Shown one piece after another: positions 36,655-39,219 of a stretch of DNA of 42,152 bases. The notes beneath the pieces were generated by a model. The model was given only the letters and a program-made list of their open reading frames with translations. It was not told the origin of the DNA and did not search any database. The position numbers and the translations under genes were made by a program. Source of the stretch: Myxococcaceae bacterium (GTDB lineage: Bacteria; Myxococcota; Myxococcia; Myxococcales; Myxococcaceae); the NCBI GenBank assembly GCA_019694575.1, contig JAIBBR010000032.1, forward strand, positions 1-42,152, read 5' to 3'. Position 1 is the stretch's first letter; each line of letters opens with the position of its first letter.

Positions 36655-36707
36655 AAAATCGGCTTTTTCGCCCGCAATCAAAGGGCGACCTTCTCGTACT
36701 GTCTTTC

Positions 36708-37322
36708 GTGACTGCTCAAACACTGACTGGCTCGAATTCACTGCTGCTCTCGATGATGGTGGCCCAACCCGCGCCTACGCTGGCAAATGAAGTGCGCCGC
36801 GCGCGGGCGGGTGATGCGCAGGCTTTTGCCGCGCTGGTACGCACGGCCCAACGCCCGGTGTACGGCTTGTGCCTGCGCCTGCTGCGTTCAGAAGCCGAAG
36901 CCGCAGAAGCGGCGCAAGAGACGTTTTTGCGCGCATACCAGCACTTGGGGCGCTTCGATGAACGGCGCCCCTTCGACTTGTGGGTCATGGCAATTGCCCG
37001 AAACCTTTGCCTTGATCAGCTGCGCCGCCGCCAGAAGGTAAAGACCGAAGACGTCGAAGAACACGCCCACGCGTTGCCTTCGCACGATCTTTCACTCGAA
37101 GAGCGAGCAATTGAAAAGCAAGAGCACGCGTCGCTCGAAGGGGCGCTCTCGACACTGCCCGTCGAAGACCGCGAAGTGCTCGCGCTCTATTACGTGCAAA
37201 AGCGCACCACCAAAGAGATCGCCGAGATTATCGGCGTTGCTCCCGGTACGATCATGGCGCGGCTGTTTCGCGCCCGTGAGAAGCTGCGGCAGCGCCTGCA
37301 ACCCAAGGAACCGCTCGCATGA
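36708..37322 (+). CDS. ECF-type RNA polymerase sigma factor
   Basis: A 204-residue sigma-70-family factor (extracytoplasmic-function type). Region 2 is FAALVRTAQRPVYGLCLRLL and ETFLRAYQHLGRFDERRPFD ... LWVMAIARNLCLDQLRRR. Region 4 is LPVEDREVLALYYVQKRTTK ... EIAEIIGVAPGTIMARLFRA, with a helix-turn-helix. GTG 36708 is the longest start; ATG 36753 is also possible, and neither has a good ribosome site. Its stop overlaps the next start (ATGA), the usual position of an anti-sigma factor. The promoter it recognises was not found. Confidence 0.93.
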   Translation: MTAQTLTGSNSLLLSMMVAQPAPTLANEVRRARAGDAQAFAALVRTAQRPVYGLCLRLLRSEAEAAEAAQETFLRAYQHLGRFDERRPFDLWVMAIARNLCLDQLRRRQKVKTEDVEEHAHALPSHDLSLEERAIEKQEHASLEGALSTLPVEDREVLALYYVQKRTTKEIAEIIGVAPGTIMARLFRAREKLRQRLQPKEPLA

Positions 37323-37798
37323 CCTTGAAGAACGACGAGCTCGACCAACTTCTCGCGGAGCTCACTCCGAATGAAGACGATCGCGCCGAGCTGCTTGAAG
37401 CGCATCGGCTGCTCGAACATGACTTGTCGCGCTTGGCTGATCCGGCACCGCCCGTTGATCTCGTGCAACGGGTGATGGCCCGAGTAGCCGAGGCTCCCGC
37501 GCTCGCTCCCGGTCGCCAAGACGCCTATGTGGCTTTCGTCATTGTCAGCGTCGCTGCGTTGCTCGGCACGCTCGCCCTCGCTTCACAAGGCGTCGCTGCC
37601 GGGGCGTGGGGCGTGTGGCTGACCAAAGGCCTCACCACGGTCAGCGCGATGGTGCTTTCAACCGAAACTGCGCTCGCGGCGCTCTGGCAAAATGCCGCCT
37701 TGCCCACGGCGGTGGCGGCGATGGGCACTTCGCTGGTGCTGGTATGGGGCCTGCGTCGCTTCTCGATACCCGCGGCGGCTACGGGGCGCGCGTCATGA
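37319..37798 (+). CDS. Putative anti-sigma factor, membrane
   Basis: A 159-residue protein inferred from its position (ATGA overlap with the ECF sigma gene) and shape. An acidic helical N-terminal domain of about 65 residues (DELDQLLAELTPNEDDRAEL, LLEHDLSRLADPAPP), likely cytoplasmic, is followed by two hydrophobic helices (about 69-90 and 123-143) with a short periplasmic loop. The zinc HxxxCxxC motif of ZAS anti-sigma factors is absent. Such proteins hold the sigma factor at the membrane until a stress signal. The role here is inference. Confidence 0.75.
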   Translation: MTLKNDELDQLLAELTPNEDDRAELLEAHRLLEHDLSRLADPAPPVDLVQRVMARVAEAPALAPGRQDAYVAFVIVSVAALLGTLALASQGVAAGAWGVWLTKGLTTVSAMVLSTETALAALWQNAALPTAVAAMGTSLVLVWGLRRFSIPAAATGRAS

Positions 37799-39219
37799 AC
37801 TGGGCGGCGATAACCCTGACAGTGGCATTGGCCGCCAGCCCCAAAGTGTCGGTGGAATACCGCGGCACCTTGCGCGACGCGCTCAAAGTCATCGCCCAGA
37901 AGGGCGAGATCAATTTGATCGTGATCGGCGAGTTGACACAGCCGGCCGAGGTGATGCTCAAAGAGGTCTCGGCCGAAGACGCACTCACCACCGTGGCAGA
38001 GGCGTACCAACTCGAGCTCAAGCGCGACGGCAAGATTTGGATGTTGCGCGAACAATCTGCTCGCAGTGCCAGCGACACATTGCGCACCCAGGCAGAAGCG
38101 GTGAAGCAGCAGGCACAAGCCCTTGCCGAGAAGGCGACCGAGGAATTCAAGAACAAGGCCGAGCGCATGAAAGACGCCGCCAGCGGTACAAAGGCGCAGC
38201 TCGACGAAGAAGCCCAAAAACGCGCCGAAGAAATGAAAGAACACGCAGAGGAACTGAAAGAAGCAGCTTGGGAGCGTGCTGAAGAGGTGAAAGAGGCGGC
38301 GATGGAACGGGCCGCGGCATTGAAAGAACACGCCGAGGAAATGGCGGAGCACACGGCCGGTGGGGCGAATGCCCAGCGCGCGTCGTTCGGAGGGCCGATT
38401 GTCGTCAAAGCCGGTGAACGCGTGGAGTCGGCCGTCGCGTTCGGTGGCAACGTCACCATCGAAGAAGGCGCCACGGTTGAAGACGACGCGGTTGCTTTCG
38501 GTGGCGACGTGGTGCTCGAGAAGAATTCACGCGTCGAAGGCGACGCTGTTTCATGGGGCGGCCAAGTACGGCGCGCTGATTCTGCCAAGGTGGGTGGTCA
38601 AATCGTCTCGATGGGCGAAGGCGCCATTGGCAACAAGCTCGCCAACAGCGCCTTCAAAATGAGCGGCCCGGCCGTCAACCCGAAGAATGTGGCCGCAGAA
38701 GCGGGGGCTACCTTCGCCGGGTTTCTGCTCCAGTTCGCGCTCACTTTTGGTTTGGGCTTTTTGTTTCTGATGCTCACACCTCAGCGCATTAAAACAATGG
38801 AAGCCGACATCACCCGTGGGCCAGCGCAGGTGGGCTTGGCGGGGTTGTTGGGCGCCCTGCTCCTCATTCCCATTACCATTGGTTTGGTGGTGACGCTGAT
38901 CGGCATTCCCGTGGCGCTGGTGATGTGGCTGCTCTTGCCCATTGTGTTGGCCATGGGCTTTACCGCCGTCGCCAACGTGGTGGGCATGCACTTGCCATTC
39001 GGCCGTGCGCGGCGAACGCAAGCCTTGGTACTGGCGCTGGGCATCTTGGTGGTTCAGGCGCTGAGCTACATTCCCGTGGTGGGCACGTTGGTTGGCCTTA
39101 CCGCGGCAATCGTCTCGTTCGGTACGCTCATTCGTACCCGTCTGGGTAGCCGTGGCCAAGGGCAACCGGTTCAAGACCTCGGCATGTTTTCGCAAGAGCC
39201 GACGCAGCCGGTTGCTTAA
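37795..39219 (+). CDS. STN / coiled-coil / bactofilin-like / membrane fusion protein
   Basis: A 474-residue protein whose ATG overlaps the anti-sigma stop (ATGA). A leader (MNWAAITLTVALAAS) precedes an STN-like domain (about 17-85: VSVEYRGTLRDALKVIAQKG ... VMLKEVSAEDALTTVAEAYQ), as in secretin and TonB-receptor N-termini. Residues 93-186 are a long charged helix of AEEMKEHAEE-type repeats. Residues 197-275 repeat the pattern AVAFGGNVTIEEGATVEDDA and AVAFGGDVVLEKNSRVEGDA, like polymer-forming bactofilin beta-helices. Four hydrophobic helices (about 307-445) end the protein. The STN domain and leader suggest the first 300 residues are periplasmic. Likely target or sensor of the sigma system; function unknown. 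Confidence 0.82.
   Translation: MNWAAITLTVALAASPKVSVEYRGTLRDALKVIAQKGEINLIVIGELTQPAEVMLKEVSAEDALTTVAEAYQLELKRDGKIWMLREQSARSASDTLRTQAEAVKQQAQALAEKATEEFKNKAERMKDAASGTKAQLDEEAQKRAEEMKEHAEELKEAAWERAEEVKEAAMERAAALKEHAEEMAEHTAGGANAQRASFGGPIVVKAGERVESAVAFGGNVTIEEGATVEDDAVAFGGDVVLEKNSRVEGDAVSWGGQVRRADSAKVGGQIVSMGEGAIGNKLANSAFKMSGPAVNPKNVAAEAGATFAGFLLQFALTFGLGFLFLMLTPQRIKTMEADITRGPAQVGLAGLLGALLLIPITIGLVVTLIGIPVALVMWLLLPIVLAMGFTAVANVVGMHLPFGRARRTQALVLALGILVVQALSYIPVVGTLVGLTAAIVSFGTLIRTRLGSRGQGQPVQDLGMFSQEPTQPVA

Follow-up and report, generated by a model that had tools for sequence, protein, structure and literature searches.

A conserved ECF sigma factor operon encoding a predicted periplasmic membrane protein with a bactofilin-like beta-helix

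Background

In a contig of a Myxococcaceae bacterium, from the same family as Myxococcus, Archangium and Corallococcus, the genes for an ECF sigma factor, a small membrane protein and a membrane protein with bactofilin-like repeats lie together in one operon (36708-39219 of the window, as the whole 42,152 nucleotide stretch analysed here is called). The locus raises the question of what a protein with a cytoskeletal type of fold does in a sigma factor operon, on which side of the inner membrane it lies and whether it senses stress, forms a scaffold or carries a signal from the outer membrane.

It is already known that ECF sigma and anti-sigma pairs can have a membrane protein as a third partner. 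In B. subtilis, the ECF sigma factor SigM is followed by its membrane anti-sigma factor YhdL and by YhdK, a membrane protein that aids inhibition. The operon studied here resembles this arrangement in that its ECF sigma gene is also followed by genes for two membrane proteins, the first of them the anti-sigma factor; YhdK, however, is a small transmembrane protein that is not known to have a beta-helix, an STN domain or a coiled coil. The literature searched contained no report that joins ECF sigma factors with polymer-forming or bactofilin proteins in this way, and a periplasmic bactofilin-like beta-helix as the third partner was not found there either. The group of this sigma factor may already have a number in the ECF classification.

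Results

Organization of the operon and its promoter

The three genes and the ATGA overlap at both junctions, described in the initial annotation, were confirmed (Table 1). That annotation had also proposed that the three proteins are made in a fixed ratio. The sigma and anti-sigma genes share exactly 4 nt in 36 of 38 loci, while at the second junction the ATGA overlap occurs in 16 of 38 loci, the remaining loci having spacings of -1 to +18 nt, so that a fixed ratio is weakly indicated for the operon as a whole. A TruD gene lies upstream and keeps its place before the sigma gene in most loci of the family. Downstream, a thioesterase gene and a sulfatase gene are encoded on the opposite strand. 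No inverted repeats or terminator-like sites stood out within the operon or 3' of it.

Table 1. Coordinates of the promoter, the genes and the parts of the third protein in the window
Feature	Coordinates	Strand	Remarks
ECF-type promoter GCAAT-N16-CGTA	36674..36698	+	-35 at 36674-36678, -10 at 36695-36698
ECF sigma-70 factor gene	36708..37322	+	204 aa; GTG start
Anti-sigma factor gene (putative)	37319..37798	+	159 aa
Third gene	37795..39219	+	474 aa
Leader	37795..37839	+	residues ~1-15; basic residues absent in the window protein
STN domain (predicted)	37843..38052	+	residues ~17-86; pLDDT ~94 (AlphaFold2)
Charged coiled coil (predicted)	38059..38358	+	residues 89-188; model helices 89-128 and 133-188
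Bactofilin-like beta-helix (predicted)	38374..38613	+	residues 194-273; pLDDT ~95; repeat of ~19 aa (V.FGG.V.I..GA.VEGD)
Membrane domain (predicted)	38680..39144	+	residues 296-450; ~five segments, positive charges cytoplasmic

The GTG start codon at 36708 follows the promoter element by 9 nt, and this short distance suggests that the sigma factor mRNA is nearly leaderless. Translation may instead begin at an internal methionine near 36753. Of 45 Myxococcaceae loci, 36 have the exact element GCAAT-N16-CGTA before the sigma gene, compared with 0.025 expected from shuffled sequences. Two of the inexact promoters have GAAAT, and several others have a 17-nt spacer or CGTT. The order-level relatives have GAAAT-N16-CGTA and the Chloroflexota typically GCAAC-N16-CGTA; at least 8 of the 9 bases were matched in 16 of 17 order-level loci (~3e-15) and in 15 of 25 distant loci (~2e-9), against about 10% of control windows. 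We infer that this sigma factor reads the element and thus its own promoter.

The sigma factor and the anti-sigma factor

The sigma factor matched the Pfam families Sigma70_r2 (E 1.7e-18) and Sigma70_r4_2 (E 1.5e-14), both over the cut-off, and TIGR02937 at 113.1 bits (cut-off 42.9). It has regions 2 and 4 of the Sigma-70 family without region 3, as is the rule for ECF factors. The nearest NCBIfam model was SigW (E 4.4e-36), with a score under the cut-off of that model.

The protein encoded by the second gene in the window had no Pfam match. It has the features of class I (ASDI) anti-sigma factors, namely a small conserved gene right after the sigma gene, an N-terminal domain and, frequently among its orthologs, the zinc motif Hx3Cx2C. 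The motif was present in 31 of the 38 orthologs in the same place, six of which also matched zf-HC2 (best 1.7e-6). Six of the seven orthologs that lack it belong to the clade nearest the window, in which the motif has been lost; anti-sigma groups that contain both zinc and non-zinc proteins have been described (PMC7406223). By homology with such proteins, this small membrane protein probably sequesters the sigma factor and holds it inactive. Hydropathy placed two transmembrane segments at residues ~71-89 and ~127-145, with the N-terminal domain in the cytoplasm, about 37 residues between the segments outside the membrane and a short basic tail inside. The window's anti-sigma factor has no sensor domain and, with so short a stretch outside the membrane and so short a tail, no FecR-like periplasmic domain either.

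Domains, fold and location of the third protein

An AlphaFold2 model of the third protein based on 34 sequences had a mean pLDDT of 83, and a second model of residues 190-455, based on 45 sequences from several phyla, had a mean of 89 and agreed with the first. The STN domain that the initial annotation had placed at residues 17-85 was recovered as a predicted fold and as Pfam STN matches in 22 of 39 relatives (best 2.7e-21), some of them over the cut-off of 28.4 bits (for example, 64.2 bits); the window protein itself scored 17.2 bits (E 0.0047). The region superimposed on secretin N0 domains and on the signalling domains of FecA, FpvA, PupA and PupR with Z scores of 8.5-10.2. The long charged coiled coil that had been read from the sequence was also modelled; it is swapped out or missing in distant relatives.

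The repeats previously assigned to residues 197-275 were predicted to fold into a right-handed beta-helix like that of bactofilins. The core model matched Thermus bactofilin best, with 6rib in first place (Z 9.9; 75 residues superimposed at an rmsd of 1.7) and 6ria in second (Z 9.2), followed by BacA (2n3d) in fifth (Z 7.3), while left-handed helices could be superimposed only at an rmsd of ~10. The window protein had no match to the bactofilin family PF04519 at E <= 1 and was absent among the PF04519 matches of its genome; 11 of 39 relatives matched the family at E <= 0.01, and no relative scanned singly reached the cut-off of 27.9 bits, the maximum being 22.8. A profile comparison of the repeat region with the bactofilins of the same genome gave a weak match (probability 7%), the profiles being shallow. 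That genome has four canonical bactofilins elsewhere (contigs C82 and C111), three of them in tandem on C111, like Myxococcus BacNOP.

The leaders of related third proteins are plain signal peptides, for example MKLLPRILFPALLLGAPLALAQ in Myxococcus xanthus. Because these are so clear, the beta-helix is almost certainly periplasmic, as far as can be judged from the sequences, and together with the positive-inside charge pattern they place residues 17-290 outside the inner membrane, in agreement with the periplasmic location first suggested. The membrane domain had been described as four C-terminal helices. Five segments (residues 296-327, 343-366, 370-398, 409-424 and 429-450) fit the models and the charges better since, if the beta-helix is outside, the net-positive loops are then cytoplasmic. 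Glycine and proline positions in this domain are kept across phyla, and the Pfam family EI24 matched it in 2 of 39 relatives. A search of the PDB for a known fold gave no convincing match (Foldseek best E 0.02, with a poor fit; CysZ E 0.8) and none was assigned.

A 2025 study described bactofilins as cytoplasmic polymers with rare N-terminal transmembrane anchors (PMC12448750). The third protein shares its kind of beta-helix with Thermus bactofilin, BacA and Myxococcus BacM/N/O/P and differs from them in having a signal peptide, a periplasmic location, a C-terminal multi-TM domain and a link to a sigma factor. Whereas cytoplasmic bactofilins lack both a signal peptide and C-terminal transmembrane helices, it has both; because of these and of a Pfam score below the threshold, it resembles a bactofilin in fold and is not a canonical one. 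It is quite unlikely that the protein is nevertheless a true periplasmic bactofilin filament whose end-to-end assembly state sets the activity of the sigma factor. The rank of Thermus bactofilin as the best structural match (6rib, Z 9.9) and the PF04519 matches in 11 of the 39 relatives would fit such a filament, but the beta-helix has only about 4-5 turns, is preceded by a coiled coil and followed by membrane helices, and the members scanned singly stayed at or below 22.8 bits. For the same reasons, the scaffold-building role suggested in the initial annotation found no support as far as a polymeric scaffold is meant.

Conservation of the trio and its modular front part

Among 40 loci collected from the family and the order, 38 had the sigma gene and one exception was cut by a contig end, so that the same three-gene order, which the initial annotation had proposed to look for in other Myxococcota, was present in 38 of 39 evaluable loci. 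A small membrane gene lay between the sigma gene and the third gene in all 38. Myxococcus xanthus (L092) is among the species that have the trio. For more distant relatives, a peptide pattern of the beta-repeat was searched against named genomes and yielded 80 loci. An ECF sigma gene, recognized with a sigma profile, was located shortly upstream in 25 of 34 distant loci; this is beyond chance because the loci were picked by the beta-repeat, blind to sigma genes, and ECF genes are rare. Most of the 25 have a small intervening anti-sigma gene, mostly with Hx3Cx2C. They belong to Chloroflexota (Anaerolineae, Ktedonobacteria), Acidobacteria, Armatimonadetes, Eremiobacterota and other Myxococcota/Deltaproteobacteria MAGs. 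Four of the nine loci without a sigma gene encode short proteins that have no membrane domain, and one is cut by a contig end. The trio is thus a widespread, modular unit.

The signal peptide, the beta-helix and the membrane domain form the constant core of the third protein across the relatives. The front part is variable, consisting of STN (sometimes as two matched stretches), of an acidic/proline-rich stretch in L070-L074 or of nothing in L068; in L060 (G058:C58), PEGA (3.2e-8 in an alignment scan) replaces STN before the beta-helix and the trio is retained. The STN domain is therefore a replaceable add-on, and since it and the coiled coil are lineage-specific additions, neither can be essential.

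These exchanges bear on the possibility of cell-surface signalling of the FecIRA type, in which an outer-membrane receptor would signal through the STN domain to the anti-sigma factor. The gene order of sigma factor, anti-sigma factor and STN-containing protein is that of FecI-FecR-FecA, and the STN fold superimposes on the FecA, FpvA, PupA and PupR domains (Z 8.5-9.7). Secretin N0 domains, however, match the fold equally well, and STN is not conserved: some relatives with an intact trio lack it, and others have PEGA or an acidic linker in its place. The third protein has transmembrane helices of the inner-membrane type in place of a TonB-dependent beta-barrel and had no Pfam match to TonB receptors, and the anti-sigma factor lacks the periplasmic domain of FecR, all of which makes this mechanism very improbable.

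Proteins of about 200 aa that consist of the beta-repeat alone and have no Pfam match were also observed in Myxococcaceae (for example, L044:16188-16784, G022:C1:4792327, G053:C12:247505), in several Myxococcus/Corallococcus genomes at 6-15 kb from the trio; none were seen in the window's genome. In Acidobacteria (L134, L139, L147, L161), secreted proteins of ~180-200 aa have a signal peptide, FGG beta-repeats and a single C-terminal transmembrane helix, with no sigma gene nearby.

Predicted regulon

The regulon was predicted by pattern searches in which candidate targets were first chosen by a motif match. In the window's genome, the exact motif occurred 21 times, compared with 12 in a reversed control, a mild enrichment; some of the 21 matches lie close before gene starts. 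The relatives were more informative. The motif was found upstream of PspC genes in 19 of 23 relatives (0.03 expected), of SPFH/Band_7_1 genes of the YdjI type at 16 of 30 loci (0.08 expected), of GlsB/YeaQ-type genes at 7 of 15 loci (0.06 expected) and of YccF genes at 7 of 25 loci, about a quarter (0.01 expected), where the shuffles behind these expectations preserve base composition and not relatedness and the counts across relatives are not independent. The SPFH and GlsB counts include the window's genome, where the PspC relative did not turn up. In the target promoters the two boxes stay fixed while the spacer sequences vary freely. A genome-wide search in one relative (G018) gave 7 matches against 2 in the control, and four of the seven precede the sigma, SPFH, PspC and YccF genes; the start codons of its sigma, PspC and YccF genes follow the promoter element by 8-12 nt.

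Other matches were noted. Skp/OmpH was considered as a target and rejected, since the motif was present in the window's genome and at none of 29 other loci. In the window's genome, the motif also lies close before genes for a charged helical protein (L169), a DUF1232 protein (L182) and two ABC ATPases (L173, L176), the distance to the start being +10 nt for the charged helical protein and +8 nt for the DUF1232 protein. In G018 (L264), a match that may be due to chance lies 92 nt before a lipoprotein gene; the lipoprotein has a DUF2807 (Toastrack/GIN) domain, which represents a further beta-helix family of the Psp orbit.

PspC and SPFH proteins of the YdjI type are part of the phage-shock and SigW responses to membrane stress (PMC11237479, PMC3498285, PMC8581546); in B. 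subtilis, SigW controls pspA-ydjGHI (PMC3498285), and PspA is connected with the membrane through YdjI (PMC8581546). Because one promoter is common to the PspC, YdjI-type SPFH, YccF and GlsB genes, those with GCAAT-N16-CGTA in the relatives appear to form a SigW/Psp-like membrane-stress regulon, presumably read by this sigma factor. The conserved promoter and its target genes thus lend independent support to the envelope-stress circuit that had been suggested from the operon alone.

Discussion

Several observations suggest that the third protein is the sensory part of the switch, 1) the anti-sigma factor is without a sensor of its own, 2) the third gene keeps its place in the operon across phyla and 3) its front part is exchanged. 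The last of these, in a periplasmic front, resembles what is often the habit of sensor parts. The other predicted targets are scattered in the genome, while the third gene stays with the sigma/anti-sigma pair across phyla. We infer from these observations that the third protein senses the stress or gates the response to it.

The trio is proposed to be an autoregulated ECF module for inner-membrane stress of the SigW/Psp-like type, a reading to which we give about an even chance. In the unstressed cell, the anti-sigma factor with its two transmembrane segments would bind the sigma factor at the membrane. Sensing would probably fall to the third protein because the anti-sigma factor has almost no periplasmic part, and the membrane domain of the third protein would adjoin the anti-sigma factor in a putative contact. 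The periplasmic beta-helix, together with the STN domain and the coiled coil in the window's clade, would monitor the envelope, and on a disturbance the third protein would alter its contact with the anti-sigma factor, so that the sigma factor is freed. The freed sigma factor would then transcribe its own operon from GCAAT-N16-CGTA as well as the membrane-protection genes (SPFH/YdjI-type, PspC, YccF and GlsB).

The main rival, which we consider less likely, makes the third protein an effector, namely a periplasmic scaffold that is anchored in the membrane and produced on stress to stabilise the envelope; its gene would then lie in the sigma operon for the sake of induction alone. The third gene is autoregulated with the sigma gene in the same way as the other targets, PspC, SPFH and GlsB are likewise membrane-associated families, and a bactofilin-like fold suggests scaffolding. 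Against an effector stand the tie of the third gene to the sigma and anti-sigma genes across phyla, while the other targets are elsewhere in the genome, and the lack of a sensor domain in the anti-sigma factor.

The proposed sensing module can be compared with two other membrane-stress systems. In B. subtilis, RsiW undergoes regulated proteolysis and is not known to have a beta-helix gene as its partner, and the -10 element of SigW is also of the CGTA type. SigW is the nearest NCBIfam model of the sigma factor described here; in contrast to SigW/RsiW, the operon has a fixed third member, a periplasmic protein with several transmembrane segments, and the -35 element reads GCAAT or GAAAT. In both cases, a YdjI-type SPFH gene seems to be under the control of the sigma factor (PMC3498285, PMC8581546). 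The Lia/Toastrack proteins (LiaF and others) also combine a multi-TM region with a right-handed beta-helix in membrane-stress operons, which belong to the Psp orbit and sometimes adjoin a sigma factor (PMC11237479); neither bactofilin nor ECF or anti-sigma factors come up in the main text of that study. No Toastrack domain (DUF4097/DUF2154/DUF2807) was matched by Pfam in the window protein or in 38 relatives, and the beta-helix of the third protein matches bactofilin instead.

Conclusions

Tentatively, and with somewhat less than even confidence, the trio may represent a widespread three-component ECF class, undescribed within the literature searched, that spans Myxococcota, Chloroflexota, Acidobacteria, Armatimonadetes and Eremiobacterota and combines a two-TM anti-sigma factor that has no sensor, a bactofilin-like sensor and, in myxobacteria, a Psp-like regulon. 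If so, a beta-helix of the kind known from a cytoplasmic cytoskeleton would be the sensory partner in a sigma factor switch, on the periplasmic side of the inner membrane, and the Psp/SigW-like response of myxobacteria could be assigned to a named regulator and a defined promoter, with a short list of targets. The occurrence of the trio across phyla would then also assign a function to many proteins now recognisable only as 'polymer-forming cytoskeletal'.
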